A DNA stretch of 22,038 nucleotides from a virus: the IMG/VR virus record IMGVR_UViG_3300044970_001589, positions 1-22,038 of that record, one strand, 5' to 3'. The notes under the pieces are model-generated. The model was not told where the DNA came from. It was given only the letters and a program-made list of their open reading frames with translations, and made no database searches. This document shows, in pieces, positions 2,229 through 20,029 of this stretch; the first letter of the stretch is position 1; each line of letters starts with the position of its first letter. Position numbers and translations under genes: made by a program.

Positions 2229-2237
2229 GTGTAATTA
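2229..2237 (+). promoter_or_regulatory. GTGTAATTA element before the beta-propeller gene
   Basis: GTGTAATTA begins 16 bases before the ATG at 2245, in the 31-base gap after the DUF3431-like gene. It is one of seven close copies of a GTGTAANTA element placed just before unit heads. I infer a phage late promoter; the function is untested. Confidence 0.45.
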
Positions 2238-2244
2238 AGCTGTA

Positions 2245-3903
2245 ATGGACACTATATTTGGAAAGAAATCCCTATACGCCCCCGAATCAGAAATTAAATT
2301 TGCTCAAAAAACACAAAAGTTTATAGAATCTGGCGTAGAAAATTATTTCGTTAAACAAAAGTTGACAGGTGATACTGCTGGTGATCAATTTGGTAAGATA
2401 GTCTCTATGAATTCTTCTGGAACTATTTTATTAATGTCATCAAGATTAGATGATGATGGCGGAACAAATGCTGGTGCGGCACTTATTTATACGGGTAGTG
2501 CAATAAATGGATGGCAATTAAAACAAAAATTGACTGGCGATAGTGCTAATGATCAATTTGGAGTGAGCGCTAAAATGAATAATGATGGGTCTGTTTTAAT
2601 GATAGGTGGTAACACTGATAGTGGTAATGGGGGTGGTGCTGGCGCGGCATTTGTATATACGGGCAATGCTATAAACGGCTGGCAGTTAAAACAAAAATTA
2701 ACAGGATCTGCTGGTGATTCTATGGGGGCAAGTGTTGCAATTAATAATAATGCTAATATTTTAGCAATGTCAGGTCCGAACAATGACGAAGGAGGAATAA
2801 ATGCTGGGGTAGTTGCATTATACACTGGAAATGCTATAAATGGATGGCAATTAAAGCAAAGAATTATTGGTTCGGTAAATAGCGCAGAATTTGGAATAAG
2901 TATGGACATGAATGAAAGTGGTAGTATGTTATTGATAGGAAGGTCAAGATTTTTAGGTGGTGCTTTAATTTACACAGGAGATTTTTCATCTCAATGGGTG
3001 CTTAAACAAACGCTTACTGGTAGTGGTAGTGCTACATCTCGTTATGGCGAAAGTGTTGCAACAGATGCAAATGGATCTATTATAATTATGGGCGGACCTT
3101 TTGATGATTTTAATGTAGATGAGGGGGGCGTATTAATTTATACAGGTAATTTAATCAATGGATGGACATTTAAACAAAAATTAATGGGTGATAGTCCATT
3201 TGATCAACTCGGAACAAGTGTTGATATAAATTCAAATGGAACTACTTTAATAGTAGGTGGAGTAAATGATGCGCCAGCCAGGGGATCAGCATCTATATAC
3301 ACTGGAAATATAAATACTACCTGGCAATTCAAACAAAAACTTACTGGTAACAATGATAGTGCGGATAATTTTGGATCGAGCGTTGCGACCAATGTTGACG
3401 GAACTATTGTAATGGTTGGTGGCATTAAGGATAGCGATGGCGGAACAGACGCTGGCGCAGCCCTGGTTTATACCAATAAAGTTTTATCCCCAGCGCCACA
3501 AATAGAAATTAAATTTTTAAAACCGCAATTAATTCTTGGAATCGGTTATGACGATCCAAATAATGCGCTAGAACCAGATGTTACAGCATGGGTATTAATG
3601 GATGGCCCGCTTTATAATACCGAAAGTGACGAAAATTCTGGTTTTATTGGTGGACAAAGCTGGAGGAAAATGGCTCCGATTGGTTACCTACCATATGGAA
3701 AAGAAACATATAGTTACGGAGATGAGCAAGTAAGGTGGAATGGTGCTTTCTGGGCATATACAAACGATTTAGTTGGAAGAACTTTTGCTATTTCCTATGA
3801 TGATGTTCAATGGCCATGGCTAGCAACATGGACTAATAATTTTGTTGGGGCAAAAATTACATCCACATATGTAAAAACAACTAATTACCCAGCCGTGCCA
3901 TAA
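2245..3903 (+). CDS. FG-GAP-like seven-bladed beta-propeller virion protein
   Basis: This 552-residue protein is built from seven degenerate repeats of about 50 residues between about 36 and 412. Each begins with a (W/F)xxKQKLTG strand, continues with a DxFG turn and an SxxGTxLxxGG strand, and ends in AxxYTGxxxxxW. Good copies start near residues 36, 86 and 136. This is the FG-GAP pattern, and seven units predict a closed beta-propeller. A distinct Trp- and Tyr-rich C-terminal domain (about 415-552) follows. Residues 1-35 may be an attachment segment. There is no signal peptide, so the protein is probably carried on the particle, perhaps as a receptor-binding or decoration protein; that is inference. 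A GTGTAATTA element lies just upstream and there is no Shine-Dalgarno sequence. Confidence 0.75.
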   Translation: MDTIFGKKSLYAPESEIKFAQKTQKFIESGVENYFVKQKLTGDTAGDQFGKIVSMNSSGTILLMSSRLDDDGGTNAGAALIYTGSAINGWQLKQKLTGDSANDQFGVSAKMNNDGSVLMIGGNTDSGNGGGAGAAFVYTGNAINGWQLKQKLTGSAGDSMGASVAINNNANILAMSGPNNDEGGINAGVVALYTGNAINGWQLKQRIIGSVNSAEFGISMDMNESGSMLLIGRSRFLGGALIYTGDFSSQWVLKQTLTGSGSATSRYGESVATDANGSIIIMGGPFDDFNVDEGGVLIYTGNLINGWTFKQKLMGDSPFDQLGTSVDINSNGTTLIVGGVNDAPARGSASIYTGNINTTWQFKQKLTGNNDSADNFGSSVATNVDGTIVMVGGIKDSDGGTDAGAALVYTNKVLSPAPQIEIKFLKPQLILGIGYDDPNNALEPDVTAWVLMDGPLYNTESDENSGFIGGQSWRKMAPIGYLPYGKETYSYGDEQVRWNGAFWAYTNDLVGRTFAISYDDVQWPWLATWTNNFVGAKITSTYVKTTNYPAVP

Positions 3904-3960
3904 TTAATATACTTATTCTAATATCACATCAACTTTTTTAAAATATTACAATATCGTCAC

Positions 3961-3989
3961 TTGAATTGGCCCATCTTTTGCTGTAATAT
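3961..3989 (+). promoter_or_regulatory. Sigma70-like promoter for the small gene at 4011
   Basis: TTGAAT at 3961-3966 and TAATAT at 3984-3989 are separated by 17 bases, with TG directly before the -10 box. Transcription would start near 3996, just ahead of a strong ribosome binding site (AAAGGAGGT, 3998-4006). This housekeeping-type arrangement differs from the GTGTAANTA elements and suggests expression by unmodified host polymerase. Confidence 0.5.
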
Positions 3990-4010
3990 ATAGTATGAAA
4001 GGAGGTGCTT

Positions 4011-4175
4011 ATGAGTTTAAATCATTATCAAACAAATCAATTAGGTATTGTTTTTGGACCTTATGGTTCAATTGGCTATGCTGGAACGATACAGCGGAAA
4101 GATTTGAAAAAAGTCGCTCAGACTTTTTCCAAATTATTTCGTTGGGCTAAAAATGTTTTAGCTTCGTTTCTGTAA
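4011..4175 (+). CDS. Small basic protein of unknown function (54 residues)
   Basis: This short open frame has unusually good expression signals: AAAGGAGGT (3998-4006) ends four bases before the ATG, a sigma70-like promoter lies directly upstream, and a strong terminator lies directly downstream. The protein starts MSLNHYQTNQLGIVFGPYGS. It has a Gly-rich N-terminal half and an amphipathic, Lys/Arg/Phe-rich C-terminal helix (about 30-54). The C-terminal half could bind a membrane or nucleic acid. I do not recognise a family. It forms a one-gene unit convergent with Hsp20. A small host-takeover protein is possible. A structured RNA acting through its three 3' hairpins is the alternative. Confidence 0.6.
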   Translation: MSLNHYQTNQLGIVFGPYGSIGYAGTIQRKDLKKVAQTFSKLFRWAKNVLASFL

Positions 4176-4183
4176 AACAGAAA
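4146..4183 (+). other. Two consecutive RNA hairpins over the end of the small gene
   Basis: GCTAAAA (4146-4152) pairs perfectly with TTTTAGC (4156-4162) over a 3-base loop. TTTCTG (4167-4172) pairs perfectly with CAGAAA (4178-4183) over a 5-base loop that contains the stop codon. The second hairpin shares 4181-4183 with the terminator stem, so the two are partly exclusive. Confidence 0.45.
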
Positions 4184-4209
4184 AGCCCCTTGAAAGAGGG
4201 GCTTTTTAT
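4181..4209 (+). terminator. Rho-independent terminator, probably bidirectional
   Basis: A perfect 10-bp stem (AAAAGCCCCT, 4181-4190, with AGGGGCTTTT, 4197-4206) encloses a 6-base loop and leads into TTTTTATT. It ends the transcript of the 54-residue gene. Read from the other strand the stem is followed by a T-rich tract, so it can also stop the convergent Hsp20 transcript, whose stop codon is at 4216. Confidence 0.9.
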
Positions 4210-4215
4210 TATACA

Positions 4216-4617
4216 TTATTTAATTTCAATTGTTTTATGTTTTGCTTGTTCGGCTTTTTGAGCGGAGATCGTGAGCACACCATGTTCAAGTTTAGCGTCA
4301 ATTCTATTTGTGTCTAAGGTTGGTGGAATACTTACTGAATGATAAAATTTCAGATTATCTTGTTCTGCACTAATATGTAACATATTATTTTCAGAACTAA
4401 TTTTAATATTTTCTTTTCGAAAACGCGGAAGTTCAATTTCCAAACTATAAGAATCTTTGTTATCTTTAAATCCGAAAGTTTGGGTAAAACTATATTTAGG
4501 ACTTGTTACAATATTGAAACTATTGGAAAGTGTGGGCCAAAGATGTTCAATGTCATCAATAAAGTCCCAACTTTCAAAAGTATTATTTAAGGGTATAAGT
4601 GAATAATTTAAGTTCAT
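4216..4617 (-). CDS. hsp20: Hsp20/alpha-crystallin small heat-shock protein
   Basis: This 133-residue protein has an alpha-crystallin domain from about 48 to 121: a Phe/Asp-rich first strand, SYSLEIELPRFRKENIKI (56-73), and the conserved LEHGVLTISAQK (110-121). A C-terminal IxI motif, IEI (130-132), mediates oligomer contacts in this family. The size is normal. Small heat-shock proteins hold unfolded proteins in a refoldable state without ATP, and phage copies probably help virion protein folding under stress. The gene runs against its neighbours, with a convergent terminator downstream. It starts in a divergent spacer shared with phoH. TTGAAC at 4650-4655 on the minus strand, followed by TCTAAT, may be its promoter. 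Confidence 0.92.
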   Translation of the reverse strand: MNLNYSLIPLNNTFESWDFIDDIEHLWPTLSNSFNIVTSPKYSFTQTFGFKDNKDSYSLEIELPRFRKENIKISSENNMLHISAEQDNLKFYHSVSIPPTLDTNRIDAKLEHGVLTISAQKAEQAKHKTIEIK

Positions 4618-4699
4618 AGTATTAGATTAGACTCACAATTATGAAGAACGTTCAAAAAAATTTTTATAGATTAAATAAAAAGTGTCTATATTATATATA

Positions 4700-4708
4700 G
4701 TGTAAATA
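4700..4708 (+). promoter_or_regulatory. GTGTAAATA element before phoH
   Basis: GTGTAAATA begins 23 bases before the phoH ATG at 4723, within the divergent Hsp20-phoH spacer (4618-4722). It belongs to the longer-spacing class of this element, with 8597 and 13729. No Shine-Dalgarno sequence lies between it and the start. Confidence 0.45.
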
Positions 4709-4722
4709 TATATGTTCTTTGC

Positions 4723-5448
4723 ATGAAGTCTAAAAAAGAAAAACCTCGTGACGTTTCTCCATATACGGAGAAGAAAAAAACAAAATCAAACATTGAACTC
4801 AATATAAGAGAATTACCATGGACAGATAAACAAAAAGAGTTTATTAAGTTAGCAAGTGATAAACATACTAAAGTAATTATCACTAAAGGTGTCGCTGGTA
4901 CTAGTAAAACACTGCTTGCTGTATATTGCTCTCTGCAAAAAATTAAAGATAAAAAAATTAGTGAAATATATTATAGCCGCGTTCCAGTAGAAGCTTCTGT
5001 TCACGGAATTGGATATATAAAAGGTACATCTGAAGAAAAAATGTCTCCATATACACATCCAATGGTTGATAAATTAAATGAATTATTAACCGAACCGCAT
5101 GTTAAAGCGCTAATGGCTGATGAAAGAATTGTGGGAATTCCATTGGGGTTTTTGCGAGGATTGAATATTTCTAATGCAAGTTTTATAATGGATGAAGCTC
5201 AAAATTGTCGTATAGAAGATTTTCTTCTTGTAATGACTCGTATGGCAAAATTTTCTACACTGTTTATTTGTGGTGATGCTCAACAGTCGGATATTAAACA
5301 GAGTGGATTTTGTAAAGTATTTGAGATGTTTGATAACGAAGACGCTAAAAAACGAGGTATTTATACTTTTGAATTTGGAAAAGAAGATATTGTTAGATCA
5401 GAGATTCTTGCTTATATTATAGAACAATTTGAAAATAATAGAAAATAA
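4723..5448 (+). CDS. phoH: PhoH-like P-loop ATPase
   Basis: This 241-residue protein carries the PhoH domain. A Q-motif-like PWTDKQKEFI (32-41) precedes Walker A GVAGTSKT (56-63), Walker B FIMDEAQN (154-161) and the conserved GDAQQSD (184-190). Serine replaces the usual second-to-last glycine of GxxGTGKT. PhoH is a cytoplasmic ATPase related to helicase cores and is very common in phages of aquatic bacteria. Its role in infection is unsettled; phosphate stress response and RNA metabolism have both been proposed. The length suits phage PhoH, which lacks the extra domains of some bacterial homologues. It probably forms its own unit, headed by the GTGTAAATA element. The next gene follows after 16 bases with its own element. 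Confidence 0.95.
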   Translation: MKSKKEKPRDVSPYTEKKKTKSNIELNIRELPWTDKQKEFIKLASDKHTKVIITKGVAGTSKTLLAVYCSLQKIKDKKISEIYYSRVPVEASVHGIGYIKGTSEEKMSPYTHPMVDKLNELLTEPHVKALMADERIVGIPLGFLRGLNISNASFIMDEAQNCRIEDFLLVMTRMAKFSTLFICGDAQQSDIKQSGFCKVFEMFDNEDAKKRGIYTFEFGKEDIVRSEILAYIIEQFENNRK

Positions 5449-5449
5449 A

Positions 5450-5458
5450 GTGTAATTA
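5450..5458 (+). promoter_or_regulatory. GTGTAATTA element before the short fibre gene
   Basis: GTGTAATTA begins 15 bases before the GTG start at 5465 and only two bases after the phoH stop. It is identical to the element at 2229 and has nearly the same spacing. Confidence 0.45.
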
Positions 5459-5464
5459 GAGACA

Positions 5465-6172
5465 GTGCCAATTAAAAACATTATAGAAAAAGCGGAAAAA
5501 CAGTTTCCAGTTGATCAGAATATTACAGATGCAATTAAACAAGCAGTCAGTAATATATCTGGTGGCGCAACTTTTAATACGCGTCCAACAGTTAATGGTA
5601 CTGGGGTTCTTTTAAGCGGTGAAGCCGCAAAATTGCCAGATACTCTTGTTTATACCACTGGAGGTCAAACGATAAGCGGAAGTTTATCTTTTGAATCAGA
5701 CAATTATTTTTTTGATGGTGCAAACGTTTATTTCGTAAATAATACGGGTATCGTTAGTGGAGAATGGAGATTTACAAATCGTCCTACGGTTAATGGGACT
5801 GGGATTATATTAAGCGGAGAAGGAATTGTCGCAAATCAAATCTCTGATAGCACAGCGGCGGGTAGAACTTTATTAACTAGTAATTTAGCTAATCAAAGAA
5901 CTCATCTTGCATTTTTTCCAAGTTTTTCGGGTAGGTCTTCTTTTCCAGTTAATGGAGACGTTAATCGTGTTTATACGGCACTGGATACCTCAAAAATTTA
6001 TGCCTGGATATCTTTGTTAAATGATTATGTAGAAATTTCTCCAACGCCAACTGGAGAATTGGATAATCGTTATACTCAAAACTTAGGAAATGTAAGTGGA
6101 ATTCGCGCAATGACTACTGGAGAATATAATTCTCTTACTCCTATTAGTGGAGTGCTATATATTTTAATATAA
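5465..6172 (+). CDS. Short tail-fibre protein with NGTG-LLSGE modules
   Basis: The protein has 235 residues and starts with GTG; no other good start lies nearby, and the GTGTAATTA element supports this choice. A helical N-terminus (1-30) is followed by two copies of the fibre module (R)PTVNGTGxxLSGE at 41-53 and 107-119. Each copy goes with a strand of the QTISGxxxF type. This module recurs in tail fibres of many phages and twice more in this window (16046 and 19287). The C-terminus has the fibre ending YNSLTPISGVLYIL. It is probably a trimeric fibre or adaptor. Its stop overlaps the next start by one base (TAATG), so the cassette is translationally coupled. Confidence 0.75.
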   Translation: MPIKNIIEKAEKQFPVDQNITDAIKQAVSNISGGATFNTRPTVNGTGVLLSGEAAKLPDTLVYTTGGQTISGSLSFESDNYFFDGANVYFVNNTGIVSGEWRFTNRPTVNGTGIILSGEGIVANQISDSTAAGRTLLTSNLANQRTHLAFFPSFSGRSSFPVNGDVNRVYTALDTSKIYAWISLLNDYVEISPTPTGELDNRYTQNLGNVSGIRAMTTGEYNSLTPISGVLYILI

Positions 6173-6735
6173 TGACTTTAAACCAATCAAAAGTAATTCA
6201 ATACGGCCCGAAATCTGCTAAACAAATTTATTATAATAATAATTTAATTTGGACTAATCTAGTTGTCAATGGAGATTTTTCTAATGTCTCTGGAATGACT
6301 ACTAACTCTGCAAATTGGTGGGGAAGAGCAGTTCCTTTTGGATGGAATACTTTCGTAAATATTTCTACAAATGATTTTGTAGTAAGATTGCTCAATGGCG
6401 TTTATTATGCAAATATTAATGTTCTATCAAGATCTTCAGCGGAAGCAGGAGGACTGTTACCTTTTTATCAAGATATAGTAATGCCAGCAACTTCTAATGT
6501 TACTTTAACATTTTTTGGGTCTAATCCTTTTAATGCTAATGCTTGGGCTCTTGGATGTAACATAATAAACCAAACTACCTCAACTACTCTAGCAAATACA
6601 AGTATAACTACTCCTCAAACAGTTACTCTATCAGCTTCAAATGTTCCTGCTGGAAACACTATACGCATTAATTTTTGGAAAGGGGCGGCTGGTCATTCCC
6701 CAGGAATTACCAATGTTTTTGTAACATTGAATTAA
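6172..6735 (+). CDS. Fibre handle protein with carbohydrate-binding-like domain
   Basis: This 187-residue protein opens with the handle KQIYYNNNLIW (17-27), equivalent to the IYxGxxLVW segment at the start of many phage receptor-binding proteins and seen again at 19747. A jelly-roll-like domain follows: NLVVNGDFSN (29-38), WWGRAVPFGWN, then alternating beta strands to the end. The NGDFS...GW pattern is typical of galactose-binding or CBM-like folds. I infer a virion protein that binds glycans. The assignment to a carbohydrate-binding fold is by pattern only. The start overlaps the preceding stop by one base, and five bases separate its stop from the LRR gene. Confidence 0.6.
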   Translation: MTLNQSKVIQYGPKSAKQIYYNNNLIWTNLVVNGDFSNVSGMTTNSANWWGRAVPFGWNTFVNISTNDFVVRLLNGVYYANINVLSRSSAEAGGLLPFYQDIVMPATSNVTLTFFGSNPFNANAWALGCNIINQTTSTTLANTSITTPQTVTLSASNVPAGNTIRINFWKGAAGHSPGITNVFVTLN

Positions 6736-6740
6736 ATAAT

Positions 6741-7706
6741 ATGGCCGGAATTAGTTTAATATTACAAAATAGTCCGAACGTTACCGGAATCAACTGTGGC
6801 TCAAGTTCTCCAAGACTAGGTGGAACTATTGATTTATCTGCTTTTCCTAATTTGCAAGATTTTAGATGTCAAAATAATGATATTACAGCTATTAGTGGTT
6901 ATCAAAATAATGCAAATTTAACTTTTATAAATCTTATTGATAATAAAATTACAGGGTCTTTACCATCTTTTGCGGGAACCCCTAATTTAGTTACTGCTGT
7001 GTATAGTAGTAATTTATATTCAGGAACTATTCCAAATTATAATTCTCAATTAAGAAACTTTCAATGCATTAATAATAATCTTTCTGGGACAATTCCTGAT
7101 TTAACCAATAATAATGGTTGGACTAACTTTTTGGTTCATGATAATAATCTTACAGGACCAATTCCACCATCTTTAAGCAATCAAAGTAATATATCAGTAT
7201 TTTCTTGTTATGAAAACCCTTTAACAGGGTCTATTCCTAATATTAATGCATGCGGACAATTACAAAGGTTTTTATTGGCTTCATGTAATTTAACAGGCTC
7301 TATACCAAATCTAACAAATAATGTAGATCTCACGGAGTGCTGGTTTCATAATAATCTTTTAACAGGTTCTATACCAAGTCTTAGTGCAAATACTGGATTG
7401 GCTAAATTTTTATGTCAAAATCAACGGGGAACATCCAAAATAACAGGCTTTGCTGGCGGCTCTGTTTCTATTACTTTGGGTGATTTTTCAGCACAAGGCA
7501 ATCAATTAAGAGCTAGTGCGGTCAATTCGATTCTTGCATCTTTTGTTGCTGCCGGAAGAACAACGGGAACTCCAGTATTAAATGGAACATGTATATTAAA
7601 TTTAGGTGGAACAACTAATTCCAGACCAACGGGGCAAGGCGTAACACACGTTACAACCCTAAGAAATCGTGGATGGACAGTAACAACAGGAACAGCTTTA
7701 CTATGA
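6741..7706 (+). CDS. Plant-type leucine-rich-repeat phage protein
   Basis: This 321-residue protein contains seven repeats of about 20-24 residues with the plant-type LRR signature NxLxGxIPxL. GSLP, GTIP, GTIP, GPIP, GSIP, GSIP and GSIP lie between residues 72 and 212, and more degenerate units flank them (about 28-70 and 213-265). The tail (about 278-318) has a GGTTNSRPTGQG...LRNRGWTVT segment that, as I recall, often follows LRR arrays in phage and bacterial surface proteins. LRR arrays form curved binding surfaces, so receptor recognition is likely. ATG 6741 is chosen because it lies five bases after the previous stop; an in-frame ATG at 6675 would overlap that gene by 61 bases. The stop overlaps the next start (ATGA). 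Confidence 0.8.
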   Translation: MAGISLILQNSPNVTGINCGSSSPRLGGTIDLSAFPNLQDFRCQNNDITAISGYQNNANLTFINLIDNKITGSLPSFAGTPNLVTAVYSSNLYSGTIPNYNSQLRNFQCINNNLSGTIPDLTNNNGWTNFLVHDNNLTGPIPPSLSNQSNISVFSCYENPLTGSIPNINACGQLQRFLLASCNLTGSIPNLTNNVDLTECWFHNNLLTGSIPSLSANTGLAKFLCQNQRGTSKITGFAGGSVSITLGDFSAQGNQLRASAVNSILASFVAAGRTTGTPVLNGTCILNLGGTTNSRPTGQGVTHVTTLRNRGWTVTTGTALL

Positions 7707-7966
7707 TTAAAATATATTCAAATCAAGAAAAACCAGATGTTGTCCCCATGGTAGATGGGGTATTCACTAATGAAGTTGAATGGTGGATGATTTATGATGC
7801 GGTCACTAATAAAGTAATTATACCACCACTACAATGTTATGGAGGAACTTCAAGTCCATACACAATGGTTATCGCAGATACAGAAGAAGAATTAAATCAA
7901 TTTATTACAGATAACGGGTTAATTCTTCCACCTAGAGAGTTTGACTCTACTTATAATATTGAATAA
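7703..7966 (+). CDS. Small acidic protein at the end of the fibre cassette
   Basis: This 87-residue acidic protein begins MIKIYSNQEKPDVVPMVDG and ends in a region with TEEELNQFI. It has no membrane segment and no known catalytic motif. The ATG at 7703 overlaps the LRR stop in an ATGA junction, which favours it over the longer frame from 7673 that runs inside the LRR gene. Its place as last gene of a fibre cassette suggests a small fibre accessory such as a chaperone or capping subunit, but I do not recognise the family. Its 3' end overlaps the convergent metallopeptidase gene by 20 bases. Confidence 0.6.
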   Translation: MIKIYSNQEKPDVVPMVDGVFTNEVEWWMIYDAVTNKVIIPPLQCYGGTSSPYTMVIADTEEELNQFITDNGLILPPREFDSTYNIE

Positions 7967-8534
7967 CACGTTCTGGTATTTCTAGATATTCTTTGTAAGA
8001 TTTTAATATTTTAGTCGGGCAAAAATCCTGCACTTTTTGATATTTTCTATTGTCGCTCGGCCATTTATTGTATTTATAAAGCATTGCATATTTATATAAA
8101 ATAGCATTGGCACTTTGTATATATTTTTTGTGGTCGAAAAGTTTATTATTTTTAATTATATTTGCCGCGCATTTTTCACAATCAATTTCTAATTCCATTA
8201 GAGCCGCAAGTTCTTTTTTATATTTTTGTGGCTTTAAAATAATTTGTGAATAGGTTACATCATAATCGCAAAAACGATTCCATAATTTTGAATCATCTCT
8301 CCACTGTATAAAGTGGCAATACTCATGAATAAGCACGCCAAACCACTCTTCTTCTTCTAGATTTCCTTTTGCTACTTTAATAACTGGATCGTCATTAGAA
8401 TCCATATAAAAAAGGCCGGAGCATTTGCTCTTACCACCACAATAATTTCCTTTTAATAAAACAATACGACCATCAAGAGATTCGACATCTTCCTTGATGA
8501 TATCGAACACCTTGGAATTGATTAAAGACGACAT
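7947..8534 (-). CDS. Putative zinc metallopeptidase (HExxH)
   Basis: This 195-residue protein has the motif VLIHEYCHFIQW (67-78), where H70, E71 and H74 form an HExxH zinc site. A downstream ELEIDCEKCAANII segment could supply the third ligand, as in ImmA/gluzincin-type peptidases with an Exx(A/C) motif. There is no signal peptide, so it should act inside the cell. Targets cannot be predicted; it might cleave host regulators or process phage proteins. It is one of only two minus-strand genes and overlaps the fibre cassette end by 20 bases. Its own GTGTAAATA element (8542-8550) lies 16 bases upstream. That places it in the same regulatory class as the plus-strand late units. Confidence 0.65.
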   Translation of the reverse strand: MSSLINSKVFDIIKEDVESLDGRIVLLKGNYCGGKSKCSGLFYMDSNDDPVIKVAKGNLEEEEWFGVLIHEYCHFIQWRDDSKLWNRFCDYDVTYSQIILKPQKYKKELAALMELEIDCEKCAANIIKNNKLFDHKKYIQSANAILYKYAMLYKYNKWPSDNRKYQKVQDFCPTKILKSYKEYLEIPERVIQYYK

Positions 8535-8541
8535 CAGTAGT

Positions 8542-8550
8542 TATTTACAC
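8542..8550 (-). promoter_or_regulatory. GTGTAAATA element (minus strand) before the metallopeptidase gene
   Basis: Read on the minus strand, GTGTAAATA begins at 8550, 16 bases from the start codon at 8534. A TATAAATA box (8556-8563, minus strand) lies just upstream. The same spacing as at 2229 on the opposite strand argues that this is a directed signal and not a by-product of plus-strand composition. Confidence 0.45.
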
Positions 8551-8596
8551 ATATATATTTATAAAAAGTTTATAGAAGAGATTTTAGAATTTTTTT

Positions 8597-8605
8597 GTGT
8601 AAGTC
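8597..8605 (+). promoter_or_regulatory. GTGTAAGTC element heading the packaging operon
   Basis: GTGTAAGTC begins 24 bases before the ATG at 8621 and is followed by CTATAAAATA. It is a divergent partner of the minus-strand element at 8542-8550. It would drive the zinc-ribbon, sigma, HTH, nuclease and terL genes. Confidence 0.4.
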
Positions 8606-8620
8606 TATAAAATACTGTGT

Positions 8621-9046
8621 ATGAAATATTTTTGCTCAAAATGTGGTAAGACCACTCAATATAGTTTTGAAATGCCAAAATTTTGCGCATTTTGTGGGCA
8701 GTCTTTTGCCAGTAAACCTACATCAGTAGAAGCCGATGATAAAAGAAATAAATTTTTAAATGAATTAAAATTAAAGAAAAATATAAACTCTATAAATATA
8801 GAAGAAGATATTTTATATAATTCCGAATATGTTGAAGAGGGGGGTTATAAAGTTCATGATTTCAAAAAAATAAAACCATCTTTTAAAATCGATATTTATC
8901 AAAATAAAGGCGAATCTTTTGCCTCTTTATTAGAAAATCCCTCTGAGGATATAAAATCAAATAATGAAAATCCAATCGAACAAAAAACAGAGGAAGAAAT
9001 TTTAGCGGAATTTCAGAGAGAAGCGAGTTCATTAAGATCTAAATAA
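8621..9046 (+). CDS. Zinc-ribbon protein heading the packaging operon
   Basis: This 141-residue protein starts with a classic zinc ribbon: CSKC (5-8) and CAFC (22-25). The remainder is charged, acidic and low in complexity, probably helical or disordered, with Lys/Glu-rich stretches and a C-terminal Glu-rich helix. Zinc ribbons of this kind bind nucleic acids or proteins. The gene is first in a tight unit with the sigma factor (six-base gap), so a role in transcription or packaging is reasonable but unproven. No Shine-Dalgarno sequence precedes the ATG. Confidence 0.7.
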   Translation: MKYFCSKCGKTTQYSFEMPKFCAFCGQSFASKPTSVEADDKRNKFLNELKLKKNINSINIEEDILYNSEYVEEGGYKVHDFKKIKPSFKIDIYQNKGESFASLLENPSEDIKSNNENPIEQKTEEEILAEFQREASSLRSK

Positions 9047-9052
9047 TTTAAT

Positions 9053-9763
9053 ATGCCAAAAAAGAAAAAAGGCATTGTTAGACCCTCTTTTGAAGAATCG
9101 ATAGAAATAATCAATTCTGAAATACAAAAACGCAAACATCGTTGGCATCTTACCGCAATTGCATGGATGGATTTTGAAGATATCGCGCAAAGACTACGAC
9201 TACATATTTACAAAAAATGGGAGAAATGGGACCCAGCTCGCCCTATGCGTCCTTGGTTAAATCAAGTCATTAATCATCAAATGACTAATATGCTAAGAAA
9301 TCATTATTCCAATTTTTCACGCCCATGTTTGAAATGTCCATTTAATACTGGAGAATACGGATGTTCAATTTATGGTACGCAAAATAATTCATGCAAAGAT
9401 TATAAAAAATGGGAAAAAAGTAAAAAATCTGCATATGATGTTAAATTTCCATTAAGTATTCATAGTCCAAATCATGATAACCCAGAAACTACTTTGGAAA
9501 ATATATTACATGATACAGAGTATATTCTAGACATAGAAAGCTTGATGCCACTTTTTCATGAAATGATGAAAAAACATTTAAGTACAATTGAATGGAAAGT
9601 TTATGATTATATGTTTCTTCAACATTTGGGAGAGGCAGATGTAGCAAAAAAAATGGGTTATAAACTAAGTTTAAAAGAAGGGCGGCCAGCTTATAGACAG
9701 ATTAGTAAAATCAAATCTAAAATTTTACAAAAAGCGCGTGAAGTTGTAAAGGAGGTTTTATAA
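9053..9763 (+). CDS. Phage RNA polymerase sigma factor with a four-cysteine insert
   Basis: This 236-residue protein looks like a divergent sigma70-family factor. Residues 35-85 resemble region 2: DFEDIAQRLRLHIYKKW (40-56), KWDPARPMRPWL, then QVINHQMTNMLRNHY, the helix that binds the -10 element in this family. Residues 175-232 resemble region 4: LSTIEWKVYDYMFLQ, GEADVAKKMGY, then a basic helix with RQISKIKSKIL. Between them lies a Cys cluster C92, C95, C104 and C114 (CxxC-x8-C-x9-C), a likely zinc site. It would direct host polymerase to phage promoters, as gp55 does in T4, and the GTGTAANTA elements are candidate targets. The TAATG stop overlaps the next start, and AAGGAGGT just upstream provides strong translation of that gene. 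Confidence 0.72.
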   Translation: MPKKKKGIVRPSFEESIEIINSEIQKRKHRWHLTAIAWMDFEDIAQRLRLHIYKKWEKWDPARPMRPWLNQVINHQMTNMLRNHYSNFSRPCLKCPFNTGEYGCSIYGTQNNSCKDYKKWEKSKKSAYDVKFPLSIHSPNHDNPETTLENILHDTEYILDIESLMPLFHEMMKKHLSTIEWKVYDYMFLQHLGEADVAKKMGYKLSLKEGRPAYRQISKIKSKILQKAREVVKEVL

Positions 9764-10875: not shown

Positions 10876-10886
10876 TATAATATATT

Positions 10887-13711: not shown

Positions 13712-13728
13712 TAAAATATAAGATTTTA

Positions 13729-13737
13729 GTGTAATAA
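13729..13737 (+). promoter_or_regulatory. GTGTAATAA element before the portal gene
   Basis: GTGTAATAA begins 25 bases before the portal ATG at 13754, in the 42-base gap after terL. TATAAT follows at 13743-13748. It is one of the longer-spacing copies of the element. Confidence 0.45.
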
Positions 13738-13753
13738 CCTGTTATAATAAATT

Positions 13754-15655
13754 ATGGCACGAAATAATAATAAAAATATTAAATTTCCAGAACCACAGGT
13801 AATAGAAGGATCTATAAAGTCAAAAGACACTATAGAGTTAAAAGCAAGTCGTGGAGAGGTTAATACTTCTGTAAGAAGAAATCGAGCGTCTACTATTTCA
13901 AGAACAGATAAATATAAAAATATTGAGGGTGGAGTTATTCCTTTTATTTATGGTGGTGGGTACGGAAAGTATACTTCTAATATTAGTGTTAAAGATACTA
14001 TTATTTTATGTCAAAAAGCCTATTATAACTTTTCAATATTTAGGAATACTATTGATTTAATGACTGAATTTAGTTGCTCTCCAGTTTATTTTACCGGTGG
14101 AAGCGAGCAGTCAAGGAAATTCTTTCAAGCATGGGGTGATAGAATTAATTTATGGCGTTTACAAGATATGTTTTTCCGTGAGTTTTTCCGTAGCGGAAAT
14201 GTTTTTCTTTATAAATTAAATGCTGAATTTACAAAACAAGATATGCGTGTTTTATCGGACTTAATCACAACAGAAGCAAGGACTGGGGAAATTCCAGTTA
14301 GGTATATCATGTTAAACCCTGCTGATATTCAAGCTATCGGATCAGCTTCATTTATTACTCCTCAATATGTTAAAGTTTTAAATGATTTTGAAATGAAGGT
14401 TTTAGTAAACCCAGATAATGAACAAGATCGACAATTGGCTCAGCGTGTAAAAAATTTAAAAGATATAAAAAATACAAGCAATATAACACCAACAAATCAA
14501 TACATGGTTTTTGAACTAGAGTCAGATAAATTTATACCAGTTTTTTATAAAAAACAAGATTATGAACCATTCAGTGTCCCAATGGGCTTCCCAGTTCTCG
14601 AAGATATTAACTGGAAGCAGGAACTTAAAAATATGGATATGGCAATCAGCCGTACTATACAGCAAGCAGTCCTATTGGTTACAATGGGAAATGATGAAGT
14701 TGGTATGCCGACCAAAGAACAAATCGGAACATTAAGAAAAATTTTTGAAAACGAAAGTGTTGGTAGAATTTTAGTTAGTGATTATACGACAGATATTAAA
14801 TTTATTATTCCTGAAATTAGTAATATTTTAGATCCTAAAAAATATGAAGTTGTAGATCGTGATATTCGTTACGGTCTTAATAATGTTCTTTTTGGTGAAG
14901 AAAAATATGCTAATACTAATACTAAAATTGAAGTATTTCTTTCTCGTTTAAAACATGCACGTGAGACATTCATGAATGATTTTTTACTTCCAGAAATGAA
15001 AAAAATCGGTAAAAATCTTGGATTTAAAAATTTACCAACAGCACGTTTTAAAGATGCGGATTTTAAAAATGATACAAACTTAACTCGTATTTATTCCAGA
15101 TTAATTGAATTAGGAGTATTAACTCCAGAAGAGGGAATCACAGCTATTGATACTGGGCGCTTACCTCTTCCGGAAGAAAGTATTAAATCGCAAGAACAAT
15201 TTAAAACTCTTCAAGAAGATGGCTTATATCAACCTCTTTTAAATAAACCTCAACAACAACCTGTTGGGCGCCCATCTGGTACAGACGCTCCTCAAGCAAA
15301 TAAAGCTCCGAGATCAACGCCTACAGTTCAAGCTTCTGAAGATAAATCTAAAATTAATGCAGATTTAGTTGCTAAAAATTTAGCCAAATTTGATAATTTA
15401 ATAGAATCAATTGAAAATTCTTTAAAAGAAAAATTTGATCGTAAAAGACTAACTAAAGAACAAAAAGAAATTATTCAAACTGTTGCAGAGACAATCGCAA
15501 CAAATGAAAACCCTAAAGATTGGATAAATAAGATTACCGATTATATTAATAAACCAGTCCAATATAATGTCAATATGCAAGAAATAAATAAAATTGCTGA
15601 AGAGTTTGGTTTAGATTACAAAACAGCTATTTTACTTTATCACAGTAAAATATAA
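13754..15655 (+). CDS. Portal protein
   Basis: This 633-residue protein sits directly after TerL, the usual portal position. After a basic, disordered N-terminus (1-55), residues 80-115 carry KDTIILCQKAYYNFSIFRNTIDLMTEFS, the conserved entry helix of large-phage portals (shown here in two parts: KDTIILCQKAYYNF, then SIFRNTIDLMTEFS). The core runs to about 480 and includes DINWKQELKNMDMAI and the wing/stem segments. A Pro/Gln-rich linker (about 495-530) joins an extra helical C-terminal domain (about 530-633) ending in LDYKTAILLYHSKI. The portal ring forms the DNA channel and docks TerL. The C-terminal extension is not in every portal; it may bind scaffold or head-completion partners. Confidence 0.88.
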   Translation: MARNNNKNIKFPEPQVIEGSIKSKDTIELKASRGEVNTSVRRNRASTISRTDKYKNIEGGVIPFIYGGGYGKYTSNISVKDTIILCQKAYYNFSIFRNTIDLMTEFSCSPVYFTGGSEQSRKFFQAWGDRINLWRLQDMFFREFFRSGNVFLYKLNAEFTKQDMRVLSDLITTEARTGEIPVRYIMLNPADIQAIGSASFITPQYVKVLNDFEMKVLVNPDNEQDRQLAQRVKNLKDIKNTSNITPTNQYMVFELESDKFIPVFYKKQDYEPFSVPMGFPVLEDINWKQELKNMDMAISRTIQQAVLLVTMGNDEVGMPTKEQIGTLRKIFENESVGRILVSDYTTDIKFIIPEISNILDPKKYEVVDRDIRYGLNNVLFGEEKYANTNTKIEVFLSRLKHARETFMNDFLLPEMKKIGKNLGFKNLPTARFKDADFKNDTNLTRIYSRLIELGVLTPEEGITAIDTGRLPLPEESIKSQEQFKTLQEDGLYQPLLNKPQQQPVGRPSGTDAPQANKAPRSTPTVQASEDKSKINADLVAKNLAKFDNLIESIENSLKEKFDRKRLTKEQKEIIQTVAETIATNENPKDWINKITDYINKPVQYNVNMQEINKIAEEFGLDYKTAILLYHSKI

Positions 15656-15679
15656 ATTATTAATATAATTAATTATTTA

Positions 15680-15688
15680 GTGTAAAGT
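15680..15688 (+). promoter_or_regulatory. GTGTAAAGT element before the second fibre region
   Basis: GTGTAAAGT begins 14 bases before the ATG at 15694 and departs from the consensus in its last bases. It would head the unit 15694-19992. Confidence 0.4.
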
Positions 15689-15693
15689 ATCCT

Positions 15694-16041
15694 ATGGTTC
15701 CTGGAAATTATAATTTACCAACTGGTTATAGAGGCGATACTTATGGCCCAATATCTTTTTATTTTTTAAATAATAGCGGTAGCGGTATAAGTTTTCATAA
15801 TTATACTGGAGCGTTACAAGTTAAAAAATTTGAAAGTTCTAATACGGTAATTGGTTGGTACACAACAGATAGCTCAATGACAATTAGTGGCAATAAAGTA
15901 ACTTTATTGCCCAAAAATGGTGATTGTATGAAAATTTTTCCTGGTATTTATAATTTTGATTTGCAACTCAGTTCCGGAAATAAAACAAGAACATATGTCA
16001 AAGGAAAGTTTCCTATAGAAGGAGATATAACAGATTTATAA
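15694..16041 (+). CDS. Small BppU-like/Ig-like baseplate or fibre adaptor
   Basis: This 115-residue all-beta protein has YRGDTYGPISFYF (18-30), then an Ig-like domain with DSSMTISGNKVTL, MKIFPGIYNFDLQL and a C-terminal GKFPIEGDIT strand. The GDTxxxxxF start and the GxYxFDLQ core are seen in N-terminal domains of baseplate upper proteins and other small phage adaptors placed before a long fibre gene. It probably connects the 989-residue fibre to the baseplate. The four-base gap to that gene supports a joint role. Confidence 0.65.
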   Translation: MVPGNYNLPTGYRGDTYGPISFYFLNNSGSGISFHNYTGALQVKKFESSNTVIGWYTTDSSMTISGNKVTLLPKNGDCMKIFPGIYNFDLQLSSGNKTRTYVKGKFPIEGDITDL

Positions 16042-16045
16042 AAAT

Positions 16046-19015
16046 ATGTCTGATGAAATTTATATTAATGTAAACGAAGACTCGAATGATATTCTTGTTC
16101 AAGTCGCAGAATTTGATCAAGTTCTTTCGGTTAATGGTGAAACTGGTAATGTTATTGTTGATAAAAATACTATTGGTTTAAGCAATGTTGAAAATGTTAG
16201 TATTGTTGCTACTAGCGGACATTTGCAAAATCAAATTCCAAAAGAAAATAGTATACAAGAATCGCAATTCGGATTAAAAAATTATTATTTAACTGGTTCG
16301 AATGATAATTATATTTTATATCTCAATTGTTATGGCGGGACTGGTAATATTTATTTAGAACAACAGACTAAAACAGCAATCGGGTCAAAATATGTTTTTC
16401 AGTTTATAGGGTTAGCGCGCACGACTTTGAATATATACGCGAGCGGACTCTCAGCACCAACACCCCCATTAACGATTGTTCCGAAAATTTTATATTCAAC
16501 CGTACAAGAAGGATCTAAAAATCGCCAACTAGAATTTACTTTATTAAATAATACTATTTCATTTCAACCTGTTGACGAGTATTTGTTTACAGAAAGAACA
16601 CCATCTACTAGTTTACCATTAGATGATAGATACGTTTGGACACAAACTGGAACTCAATCTATTATTGGTTTAAAAATGTTTAGTGAGCGCCCACTTGTTA
16701 ATGGGACTGGATTCGTTTTAAGTAATGAGCTTGACTTAGTTTCAAGTAGCGCCGTTTATAAAACTGGCGATCAAACAATCAGTGGCGTTAAAACTTTCGT
16801 AAATACAACTCATGTTGACAGCGTTGATTTTATAAGAAATTTTAGAGCGACGGGAACACCTTATAATTTTACTAGTAATCAGTTCTTTAACTTTGGGCCA
16901 ACTGGTTTCTTATTTACAGGATGGAATTTAGCGCCAATCAATCCTTCTGATGATAGTCGAAGTATAAAATTAAGTAATGGTAGTTATACTGTAGTTACCA
17001 TTAATCAACCTGCTGGCGGCGGCAGCAATGTAACCTGGGAAGCTATTCCAAATAAAAATGATTTATCTAATAGAATATCTTTTAATTTATATTCTGGTAA
17101 TACACCTTTTAAAGCGGCTTCTGTTAATGTTGGTCCAGAAACCATTTCTGTTTCTGGGTTCTTACCTAGAGAATATGATAGATTTATTATAAGATATGTA
17201 GGGGGTGGCGGCTTATTACCATCTGTTAATGTTTCTGGAAATTTTGGCGTTAACAATGAAATAAGATTAGAAGCTCGTGATAATAGATTATTTTTAGGAA
17301 GTTCTGGCGTACTATTTCAAAATGAAACTTCCGCACTTTCAACTGCTAATTATATTACTGTTCCAGTAACTGATAATCCTATGACTAATGGAACAAATTT
17401 ATTAGCAGCTTATGCTAAAGCAAAAACAACATTACCTAATGGTAGCGCACTTTCTGCGACAAATAGGTTAGCAATTATTTTACCACCGGCGATTTATGAT
17501 CTTGGGACGCAAAGTTTAACTCTCGATACTCAATATATTGATATTATTGGTTCCACTCCAGATAGAAGCAAACATCATATCAAAAGCGATATTGGGATAA
17601 CAAATAGGGGCACTATCCAACAAACTGCAAACAATGTTAAGTTATATAATTTAACAATAGAAAATGTAGATAATACTTATATTAAAAACTATGCCGCATC
17701 AGATCCGGCCGCATATTTTCCCAGTTCTAATTTAAATAATACATATTTAGAGAATATAAATTTAATTGGAAGCGTTAATATTTGGTCGATGCGTTTATCC
17801 ATAGAGTATTCGGGAACTTTTAAAAATTGCACTAGTGGGGATTTTGCTTTCGGGGCCACTGGGTCCGCAAGCGGAACTTTCGAAGATTGCACTGGTGGAG
17901 ATTACGCATTCGGTGGCGATGGTGGAACCGCAAGCGGAATTTTCAAAAATTGTACTGGTGGAGATTACGCATTCGGTGGCGATGGTGGAACCGCAAACGG
18001 AATTTTCAAAAATTGCATTGGTACATATGCCGCATTTGGCGGGGATCTTGGAACCGCAAGCGGAACTTTCAAAGATTGTACTGGTGGAAATTATGCATTT
18101 GGTTATACTGCAAGTGGAACTTTCGAAAATTGTACTGGTGGATATAGCGCATTTGGTGGCTATGGAACCGCAAGTGGAACTTTCAAAGATTGTACTGGTG
18201 GAGATTATGCATTTGGTGGGGGTCTTGGAACCGCAAGCGGAACTTTCAAAGATTGTACTGGTGGAGATTATGCATTTGGTGGGGGTCTTGGAACCGCAAG
18301 CGGAACTTTCGAAAATTGCATTGGTACATATGCCGCATTTGGCGGGGATCTTGGAACCGCAAGCGGAACTTTCAAAGATTGCATTGGTACATATGCCGCA
18401 TTTGGCGGGGGTATTGGAACCGCAAGCGGAACTTTCGAAAATTGTACTGGTGGAGATTACGCATTCGGTGGCGATAGTGGAACCGCAAGCGGAATTTTCA
18501 AAAATTGTACTGGTGGAGATGGCGCATTTGGTGGCTATGGAACCGCAAGTGGAACTTTCGAAAATTGTACTGGCGGAGATTATGCATTTGGTGGCTATGG
18601 AACCGCAAGTGGAACTTTCGAAAATTGTACTGGTGGAGATTATGCGTTTGGCGGGGATATTGGAACCGCAAGCGGAACTTTCAAAGATTGTACTGGTGGA
18701 GACGGCGCATTCGGCTATGATGCAAGTGGAACTTTCGAAAATTGTACTAGTGGAAATTATGCATTTGGTTATACTGCAAGTGGAACTTTCAAAGATTGTA
18801 CTGGTGGAGATGGCGTATTCGGATCTAATGGAACTGCAAGCGGAACTTTCAAAGATTGTACTGGTGGAGATGGCGCATTCGGTGGCGATGGTGGAACCGC
18901 AAACGGAATTTTCAAAAATTGCACTGGCGGAGATTATGCATTTGGTGGCTATGGTGGAACCGCAAGCGGAACTTTCAAAGATTGTATTGGAGGAAACGGC
19001 TCTTTTAACTTATAA
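16046..19015 (+). CDS. Long tail fibre with C-terminal 20-unit beta-solenoid
   Basis: This is the longest protein in the window (989 residues). Its N-terminus (30-55) has SVNGETGNVIVDKNTIGLSN, a segment common at the virion-bound end of phage fibres. A shaft follows and carries RPLVNGTGFVLSNE and QTISGVKTF modules (about 213-255). A domain resembling pectate-lyase-type beta-helices (about 440-585) has LAIILPPAIYDLG, IDIIGSTPDRSKHHI and a NVKLYNLTIENVD strand. Residues 589-989 are 20 tandem units of 18-21 residues, SGTFKDCTGGDYAFGG-like, each with one cysteine at the same place. This predicts a right-handed beta-solenoid ending at the C-terminus. Depolymerase or receptor-binding activity is possible; I saw no clear catalytic site. 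Confidence 0.85.
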   Translation: MSDEIYINVNEDSNDILVQVAEFDQVLSVNGETGNVIVDKNTIGLSNVENVSIVATSGHLQNQIPKENSIQESQFGLKNYYLTGSNDNYILYLNCYGGTGNIYLEQQTKTAIGSKYVFQFIGLARTTLNIYASGLSAPTPPLTIVPKILYSTVQEGSKNRQLEFTLLNNTISFQPVDEYLFTERTPSTSLPLDDRYVWTQTGTQSIIGLKMFSERPLVNGTGFVLSNELDLVSSSAVYKTGDQTISGVKTFVNTTHVDSVDFIRNFRATGTPYNFTSNQFFNFGPTGFLFTGWNLAPINPSDDSRSIKLSNGSYTVVTINQPAGGGSNVTWEAIPNKNDLSNRISFNLYSGNTPFKAASVNVGPETISVSGFLPREYDRFIIRYVGGGGLLPSVNVSGNFGVNNEIRLEARDNRLFLGSSGVLFQNETSALSTANYITVPVTDNPMTNGTNLLAAYAKAKTTLPNGSALSATNRLAIILPPAIYDLGTQSLTLDTQYIDIIGSTPDRSKHHIKSDIGITNRGTIQQTANNVKLYNLTIENVDNTYIKNYAASDPAAYFPSSNLNNTYLENINLIGSVNIWSMRLSIEYSGTFKNCTSGDFAFGATGSASGTFEDCTGGDYAFGGDGGTASGIFKNCTGGDYAFGGDGGTANGIFKNCIGTYAAFGGDLGTASGTFKDCTGGNYAFGYTASGTFENCTGGYSAFGGYGTASGTFKDCTGGDYAFGGGLGTASGTFKDCTGGDYAFGGGLGTASGTFENCIGTYAAFGGDLGTASGTFKDCIGTYAAFGGGIGTASGTFENCTGGDYAFGGDSGTASGIFKNCTGGDGAFGGYGTASGTFENCTGGDYAFGGYGTASGTFENCTGGDYAFGGDIGTASGTFKDCTGGDGAFGYDASGTFENCTSGNYAFGYTASGTFKDCTGGDGVFGSNGTASGTFKDCTGGDGAFGGDGGTANGIFKNCTGGDYAFGGYGGTASGTFKDCIGGNGSFNL
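17810..19012 (+). repeat. Tandem array of 20 coding repeats (54-63 bp units)
   Basis: Nineteen full units and one shorter last unit encode 18, 20 or 21 residues each with the core SG(T/I)F(K/E)(N/D)C(T/I)GG. Units 7 and 8 differ by a single base at their start, and a CIGTYAAFGGD variant is shared by units 4 and 9, so units have been copied as blocks. Length variation is confined to the loop after the AFG core and is always a multiple of three bases. Confidence 0.95.
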
Positions 19016-19021
19016 TAAATT

Positions 19022-19285
19022 ATGACAATATATACGAAAACACAAAAAAATGTAACCTTTAAAAAAATAAATGTTTCAAAAGGCGAAGACAATAAACCCA
19101 AAAGGGAAGAATCTGACCCATCTTCAGAGGAGTCTTCTATTTTAGAAAACCATTACAATAATATAACCGCAAATTTAAATGATTATGAAACTTTAATAAG
19201 TTTTGATGTAAATAATATTGAAGATCTTGGTGGTATTTTAAATTATAGAAACTCTAAAGGAGATCATAAACAAGTAAGGTATTAA
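19022..19285 (+). CDS. Small charged protein of unknown function
   Basis: This 87-residue protein begins MTIYTKTQKNVTFKKINVSK. A disordered Ser/Glu/Lys-rich middle (about 20-40) follows, then a hydrophilic C-terminal half with ETLISFDVNNIEDLGGIL. It has no membrane segment, cysteine or recognised family. It starts six bases after the fibre stop and is followed after one base by a short fibre gene, so it belongs to the adsorption unit. It may be a fibre linker or assembly factor; this rests on position only. Confidence 0.55.
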   Translation: MTIYTKTQKNVTFKKINVSKGEDNKPKREESDPSSEESSILENHYNNITANLNDYETLISFDVNNIEDLGGILNYRNSKGDHKQVRY

Positions 19286-19286
19286 A

Positions 19287-19745
19287 ATGAGTAATCAAGT
19301 ATTTCATTTTTCAAATACGGGAATATCATCTGGACAAAGATTTTATCTTAAAGATGATGTGTCTGGTATTTTTTTAAGAAATCTTGTAATTAATTCGGAT
19401 TTTCCAGTACTTGGTTCAAATTTAGTTTACAATACTGGCAATCAAACTATTAGTGGTATTAAAAATTTCGCGTCTCACCCAACTGTTAATGGAACTGGCG
19501 TTCTTTTAAGCGGTGAGGTCGCACAAGCGGATTTAAGTTCGACCGTCCGAACTACTGGAGATCAAACTATTAGTGGTATTAAAAATTTCGCGTCTCACCC
19601 AACTGTTAATGGAACTGGCGTTCTTTTAAGCGGTGAAGCAGTTAGAAGCAATGGCACAATCAATACGATGGTAAAACTAACGCAATCTCAATATAATGCT
19701 CTTTCACTAAAAGACCCAACAACTTTCTATGTAATTGTAGGCTAA
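19287..19745 (+). CDS. Short tail-fibre protein, paralogue of the 5465 gene
   Basis: This 152-residue protein holds two near-identical modules QTISGIKNFASHP-TVNGTGVLLSGE (about 52-77 and 92-117), encoded by a 120-base duplication. The C-terminus (about 127-152) is the fibre ending VKLTQSQYNALSL...TFYVIVG, equivalent to the YNSL...LYIL ending of the 5465 protein. The N-terminal 45 residues differ and may specify where it attaches. It probably forms a short trimeric fibre or adaptor. AAGG 10 bases before the ATG is a moderate ribosome site. One base separates it from the handle gene at 19747. Confidence 0.75.
   Translation: MSNQVFHFSNTGISSGQRFYLKDDVSGIFLRNLVINSDFPVLGSNLVYNTGNQTISGIKNFASHPTVNGTGVLLSGEVAQADLSSTVRTTGDQTISGIKNFASHPTVNGTGVLLSGEAVRSNGTINTMVKLTQSQYNALSLKDPTTFYVIVG
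19441..19636 (+). repeat. 120-base direct duplication inside the short fibre gene
   Basis: Bases 19441-19516 recur without a mismatch at 19561-19636, with the copies offset by exactly 120 bases (40 codons). The perfect 76-base identity at third codon positions shows the duplication is recent or kept uniform by recombination. Confidence 0.95.
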
Positions 19746-19746
19746 T

Positions 19747-19992
19747 ATGTTATTACAAGAAGCCGATAATTTTCTTTTAGGAACTGGAATTGTCAATCGT
19801 TTATACATGGGCGAAACACTGGTTTGGCCAGTTCCAAGTGGAAATCTTTGGCAATTTATAGCTAATCCATTTAATAAAACTTTGTTGGGTTTTAGCGTGG
19901 TTTATAATAATGGAAATGTATTCGCAAATTGGGGTGACGGAAATGTAAGCGGTATAATTTCTAATACAGGTTATAATCATACTTTTGAATAA
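19747..19992 (+). CDS. Short handle protein with PKD-like segment (possible truncated receptor-binding protein)
   Basis: This 81-residue protein opens with the handle IVNRLYMGETLVWP (15-28), matching the one in the 6172 protein. It then has LLGFSVVYNNGNVFANWGDG (46-65) and YNHTF (76-80). WGDG followed by HTF/HTY is the mark of PKD-like domains, which in phage and bacterial surface proteins often lead into LRR arrays. Here the frame stops just after HTFE, so no LRR follows. The protein may be a natural short form or the stump of a longer one. It follows the short fibre gene after one base, repeating the 5465/6172 gene order. Confidence 0.6.
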   Translation: MLLQEADNFLLGTGIVNRLYMGETLVWPVPSGNLWQFIANPFNKTLLGFSVVYNNGNVFANWGDGNVSGIISNTGYNHTFE

Positions 19993-20016
19993 TAAAGTTT
20001 TTATAATTTATTTCAT

Positions 20017-20029
20017 GTGTATATAAATA
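20017..20029 (+). promoter_or_regulatory. GTGTATATAAATA element before the lysis region
   Basis: A degenerate copy of the element, GTGTATATA, begins 14 bases before the ATG at 20031 and overlaps a TATAAATA box (20022-20029) that ends one base before the ATG. If used, it would give a nearly leaderless transcript of the lipoprotein and downstream genes. Confidence 0.35.

Follow-up and report, generated by a model that had tools for sequence, protein, structure and literature searches.

A GTGTA element placed for often leaderless mRNAs, a candidate phage-sigma promoter in an uncultured phage lineage

Leaderless mRNAs are known from bacteria such as mycobacteria and from single phage genes such as lambda cI, where transcription begins at the start codon and the -10 box stands at a fixed distance upstream. 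The late promoter of phage T4, TATAAATA, combines one -10 element with a phage sigma factor and has no -35 box. In phiEco32, the small, extracytoplasmic function (ECF)-like phage sigma factor gp36 reads a single -10-like motif, tAATGTATAtA, in which a TGTA core is followed by A/T and which lies 6–8 nucleotides (nt) upstream of the transcription start, according to PMC4281155. Phage transcripts 'are often leaderless' in the words of PMC5312081, and leaderless genes in phages are thus nothing new in general. Here we analyze the 22,038-base virus record IMGVR_UViG_3300044970_001589 (the window, meaning this whole stretch), which carries genes including those for a terminase, an endolysin, PhoH, Hsp20 and tail-fibre-like proteins. 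A short element recurs ahead of its gene starts: GTGTA, then A (T or C less often), then A/T-rich bases. We consider it probable that this element is a promoter consisting of a -10 box only, likely read by a sigma factor of the phage itself, with transcription starting some 14 nt past the first G and often yielding leaderless mRNAs. The observations behind this proposal are that the element is enriched by position, keeps a fixed, sharply bounded distance to the start codon, is conserved and lacks a -35 box.

The total number of copies in the window was discarded as evidence, since bare GTGTAA occurs there 12 times against 11.35 expected, which is chance level. Scored by position, GTGTAA lies 13–26 nt upstream of 8 of the 26 gene starts that we listed by hand (9 of 26 with GTGTA[AT]), the best result of all 4,096 hexamers. 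The next-best hexamers reach five starts, and 89 permutations gave a mean of 0.2 and a maximum of 5, the latter for the overlapping word AGTGTA. Two of the starts, GTG 97 and GTG 5465, were picked partly for the element, and 6 of 24 remain when both are removed. All eight sites named by an earlier, sequence-only reading of this DNA are present at the distances given in Table 1, and a ninth copy, at 81, had been overlooked. The gene behind it probably starts at GTG 97, at a distance of 16 nt, because ATG 79 is excluded by an in-frame stop in its orthologue from locus L073, a protein 60% identical. The nine-letter form GTGTAANTA fared less well as a general consensus: it is exact at four sites only (2229, 4700, 5450 and, on the minus strand, 8542), and with one mismatch allowed it gives 32 matches against 29.9 expected in the window, no excess. 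It was dropped as too narrow, and GTGTA with the following A, T or C is the robust core.

Relatives were collected through the terminase (80 loci kept out of 330), through the sigma factor (76 loci) and by a wider sigma-factor search (80 loci kept out of the 574 or more contigs of the viral collection that carry this sigma). Eleven contigs of 40–180 kb were read by an unsupervised hexamer scan before called genes, the calls being made by a simple longest-frame script and not by a trained gene finder. GTGTAA is the most enriched upstream hexamer in seven of the eleven, with 24–26 copies against 1.4–1.7 expected in five close contigs (24 against 1.6 in G001), and with 13 against 0.7 in G013 and 9 against 0.3 in G015. 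The longer word GTGTAAWTA was found 124 times against 25 for its reversed control in 12 close records, and 13 times against 4 in seven distant ones. On 50 kb of T4, the same scan placed the known late promoter word on top (TAAATA/TATAAA). Thus, the enrichment before starts that had been predicted for larger genomes and relatives is strongly borne out.

Comparison of the distances to the start codon indicates where transcription would begin. Among 210 homologue groups, with one representative each from loci L001–L210 and distances counted from the first G, an ATG falls at 13, 14, 15, 16, 17 and 18 nt in 1, 38, 20, 12, 11 and 4 groups, after which the counts tail off, rising slightly once more at 23–25 nt (8, 5 and 9 groups). 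The edge is repeated in 58 further loci, with 0, 27, 13, 7 and 14 copies at 13 to 17 nt; two of 60 such loci had been dropped as contigs already used, and at least one that was kept, L232, is a near relative of an earlier contig. Control words at 14–17 nt reach 2, 3, 4, 4 and 9, against 44 for the element, and the overlapping word AGTGT reaches 23. A peak at 14–15 nt is seen in each of the sigma clades II, III and IV, in which the sigma factor is about 40–44% identical to that of the window. An mRNA that starts past the start codon cannot translate that codon, so the hard left edge would mark a transcription start near G+14. The geometry of the T4 late promoter (-13 to -6) puts transcription start at the same G+14. 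A start 14 nt after the first G would explain the edge, and genes at 14–17 nt would have leaders of 0–3 nt. This one-sided edge supports the earlier view of the element as a promoter with a near-leaderless short group. The accompanying claim, of two spacing groups about nine bases apart, holds for the sharp 14–17 nt peak with its abrupt left edge; the second group is only the modest bump at 23–25 nt, and bimodal spacing as a rule was rejected. Part of the bump may come from a second, TATAAT box at 10–13 nt.

Host-type promoters in the same contigs provide an internal ruler. The host-type -35 box, TTGACA, is the second-ranked upstream word in several contigs. TTGAC[ATC] stands exactly 35 nt before an ATG in 40 of 100 cases in the five close contigs, with 3 at 34, 11 at 36 and 7 at 37 nt, and the 35-nt distance recurs in 20/58 cases in clade IV, 9/22 in clade III, 5/14 in clade II and 1/5 in clade V. 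Control words at 35–38 nt score 1–6 against 67 for TTGAC, and words overlapping the motif 23. In the relatives' contigs, TATAAT peaks 11–12 nt before the ATG. By textbook sigma70 geometry, such spacing would let the mRNA begin on the A of the ATG itself. Leaderless starts thus seem common to two promoter classes, the GTGTA element and host-type TTGAC promoters. Around the sigma gene, where the 58 further loci lie, the TTGAC edge is weak (39 copies with an ATG: 3 at 34, 4 at 35, 2 at 36 and 10 at 18–34 nt), and neither of the two TTGAC copies with an ATG in the window lies at 33–37 nt.

The two classes serve different genes, with overlaps of 1, 0, 0, 0, 0 and 0 in six contigs. No -35 box accompanies the element: of 94 groups, one has TTGAC where such a box would be expected, no more than in a control stretch. 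A -35 box was rejected, the sole registered excess being AAGT (10 against 1.9, uncorrected). Among genes with the element at 22–26 nt, TATAAT lies 10–13 nt before the ATG in 7 of 28 groups, compared with 39 of 1322 genes lacking GTGTA, and some of these genes perhaps have a further leaderless promoter, of the host type, next to the element. One such box in the window starts at 13743, 11 nt upstream of ATG 13754.

Shine-Dalgarno-like sites differ between the spacing classes. They are present in 5 of 97 groups with the element at 13–17 nt and in 17 of 61 at 25–59 nt (Fisher p 1e-4), and in the further loci in 4 of 61 of the short class against 13 of 35 of the long class. Such sites are rare even where the element is absent (only 16 of 224 such genes in G001), so what carries information is their excess in the long class and not their lack in the short one. 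The missing site, earlier taken as a sign of leaderless genes, is therefore a weak sign, as most genes of these phages have none. In the window, a strong ribosome site, AAAGGAGG, belongs to a 55-codon gene at 4011–4200 and is exceptional there; a terminator-like hairpin lies near 4183.

We next consider the likely reader of the element, the sigma factor encoded from 9053. Its Pfam match to Sigma70_r2 has an E-value of 1e-6 and 28.9 bits against a cut-off of 24. Cysteines C92, C95, C104 and C114, in an insertion at residues 92–114, are invariant in 29 of 29 relatives and are perhaps a zinc-binding site. This insertion sets the protein apart from phiEco32 gp36. A fold search with the sigma model (predicted local distance difference test score, pLDDT, of 70) gave weak matches to ECF sigma factors, the best with an E-value of 4.7e-3 and none at or below 0.001, and the search of solved structures gave no significant match. 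The match of the sigma family to phrog_1740, to which phiEco32 gp36 belongs, is weak (23 of 29 members, best E-value 4.5e-6) and covers region 2 in the window protein; gp36 itself matches phrog_1740 at 1.9e-45. Members of the window's sigma family match phrog_1740, 351, 13787 and 14737 only, leaving phrog_234, the family of T4 gp55, unmatched. Among named phage records the sigma factor found no match and the terminase found 49 distant records only. The element has the TGTA core and the -10-only form of the gp36 type. Likeness of sigma and likeness of motif to phiEco32 point the same way, and neither proves the link between the two. Since the sigma gene is second in the unit headed by the element at 8597, self-reinforcing expression is suggested.

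A search with the sigma alignment hit four contigs from genome bins, whose labels disagree: Flavobacteriales, uncultured bacterium, Halobacteriovorax and Flavobacteriaceae. TTGAC patterns at leaderless spacing are few in those bins. In the Halobacteriovorax-labelled bin, G022, TTGAC at or near this spacing occurs on the small contigs C1, C12, C24 and C33 and not on the 1.3-Mb contig; the small contigs may be other phages.

Gene functions were sampled in G001 and G002 for 48 of 50 element genes and 36 of 37 TTGAC genes, most of which have no match. Matches of element genes include PhoH, endonucleases of the HNH and LAGLIDADG types, and tail tape measure, minor tail, cement and tail-tip proteins; those of TTGAC genes include rIIB, RNA ligase, polynucleotide kinase, DNA polymerase and a head maturation protease. 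Judged from these matches, late timing of the element genes is likely.

Several results weigh against a phage-sigma promoter of this description. The element genes are not cleanly late, as PhoH and the homing-type endonucleases show, and the head maturation protease match falls in the TTGAC set. A few copies sit at 8–13 nt, namely 6 of the 138 from the 58 further loci. Spacing in clade V is loose, with 11 copies at 15–38 nt and none at 14. The homologue groups were split by a crude 4-mer rule, and the counts are partly non-independent. GTGTAA ranks second in G018, third in G017 and eighth in G014, where GTGTAT leads, and has fewer than four copies in G016. An hhalign comparison of the sigma profile with the single gp36 sequence or the single gp55 sequence gave no match. 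The idea that the element heads transcription units is upheld in that it is rarer before tightly packed same-strand genes (2/90 against 26/141 in G002; p 5e-3 to 5e-5 in five contigs), a test confounded by the packing itself, which leaves no space for any non-coding motif.

We considered three other explanations. One keeps the promoter and gives it to the host polymerase, with its primary or an alternative sigma factor. TGTAAT does resemble a host -10 box, the link between phage sigma and motif is one that we infer, and the long-spaced group often has a TATAAT box as well, as described above. This explanation would have to accommodate an element that lacks a -35 box and that sits on different genes from TTGAC. 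The motif also stays unchanged while the sigma factor diverges to about 40% identity, among contigs all obtained via sigma or terminase. Moreover, the related phiEco32 gp36 reads a similar motif according to PMC4281155. We regard host reading as unlikely. A signal at the RNA level, for ribosome binding or start selection about 8 nt before the start codon and with no promoter, is decidedly improbable in our view. A spacing of 14 nt leaves an 8-nt gap between hexamer and ATG, as for a Shine-Dalgarno site, and most genes of these phages have no such site, two points in favour of such a signal. However, the distances show a hard left edge and a tail in place of an optimum, an edge of the same kind is seen for TTGAC, which is certainly a promoter word, and it is the distant copies of the element that accompany Shine-Dalgarno-like sites. 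The element is also scarce ahead of genes internal to units, and some copies directly follow terminator-like hairpins or tRNA 3' ends; GTGTA[AT] occurs within 60 nt upstream of 9 of 91 tRNA genes, a raw count with no chance expectation.

A similarly small chance falls to a promoter as proposed whose genes truly start at codons further downstream, so that leaders exist after all. Starts here are predicted, and they are less certain still where GTG is the start codon and because the contigs are metagenomic. Against downstream starts, codons 2–12 after the predicted starts vary mostly at third positions (68, 48 and 120 changes at positions 1, 2 and 3, from 36 pairs in 21 groups), and a random choice of starts would not place 38 ATGs at one distance. 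The -10-only promoter with transcription starting near G+14 remains the explanation we prefer.

As a proposed -10-only promoter with a phage sigma, the element is of a known kind; what is new is the placement at leaderless distance across a large lineage, together with matching host-type promoters. This placement is unusual for large tailed phages. The element GTGTA[ATC] differs in sequence from the T4 late promoter, and T4 copies of TATAAATA lie 22–81 nt before the ATG at 15 sites in 50 kb of T4, 12 of them with a Shine-Dalgarno-like site. Unlike the element, the phiEco32 motif lies 31–67 nt before the ATG at six sites, five with an AGG-type ribosome site by eye. Compared with lambda cI and mycobacteria, the present case involves two promoter classes and many units in one large phage lineage. 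No paper on a GTGTA motif was found in open-licence PMC text, subscription journals and preprints being outside the scope of that search.

Table 1 Copies of the element and the sigma factor gene in the window, with predicted leaders and conservation.
Feature	Position	Strand	Gene start	Distance (nt)	Predicted start or leader	Kept in located orthologues	Remarks
Element	81..89	+	GTG 97		transcription start ~95	12/12	GTGTA[AT] in orthologues
Element	2229..2237	+	ATG 2245	16	leader 2 nt	4/8	
Element	4700..4708	+	ATG 4723	23	leader 9 nt	51/66	PhoH gene
Element	5450..5458	+	GTG 5465	15	leader 1 nt	4/11	
Element	8542..8550	-	ATG 8534	16	leader 2 nt	74/74	
Element	8597..8605	+	ATG 8621	24	leader 10 nt	72/97	mostly 24–25 nt in orthologues
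Sigma factor	9053..9763	+					Sigma70 region 2, four-cysteine insertion; second gene of element-headed unit
Element	13729..13737	+	ATG 13754	25		82/85	61 at 25 nt; portal-position gene after terminase
Element	15680..15688	+	ATG 15694	14	leader 0 nt	35/35	14–18 or 21 nt in orthologues
Variant element GTGTATATA	20017..20025	+	ATG 20031	14	leader 0 nt	8/23	GTGTA[AT] in orthologues

Among PhoH orthologues, the element lies mostly at 22–23 or 34–35 nt. The unit behind the element at 8597 runs from the 8621 gene, for a zinc-ribbon-like protein, through the sigma factor and an ERCC4-type nuclease to the terminase. Some of the other orthologues of the 20031 gene have GTGTAC in the same place. In the related loci L148 (at 3065), L178 and L185, the element directly follows a terminator-like GGGCAC...GTGCCC hairpin with a T run, and the gene behind it encodes 74 residues and has AAAGG sites. 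Elsewhere in the window, the tail-fibre-like genes at 5465–6172, 16046–19015 and 19287–19745 share a recurring RPxVNGTGxxLSxE peptide, as if modules were exchanged. A 989-residue protein carries a long in-frame array of short repeats at 17805–19010, where an alternative frame of 396 codons is open throughout.

We propose that a polymerase carrying the phage's own sigma factor most likely reads the element and would begin transcription about 14 nt past its first G. For about half of the units in these phages, the start codon would lie at that point or 1–3 nt further on, giving leaderless or nearly leaderless mRNAs whose 5'-terminal AUG or GUG the ribosome would have to use for initiation. Other units, including that of the tape measure gene, would have a longer leader and more often a Shine-Dalgarno-like site. 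The regulon would probably feed itself, as the sigma gene lies within an element-headed unit. For the lineage as a whole, we lean slightly towards leaderless mRNA as the usual form for both TTGAC and GTGTA promoters, with leaders for a subset.

The analysis would provide a working promoter code, from sequence alone, for a large uncultured phage lineage, with 5' ends predicted to the base. The spacing edge would also offer a cheap test for leaderless transcription in other phages that lack RNA data. If the proposal is true, promoter placement would act as a two-tier translation code, and host or phage must favour initiation at a 5'-terminal AUG. Leaderless and leadered genes under one sigma factor would then make these phages a natural system for studying ribosome choice and shifts in translation during infection.

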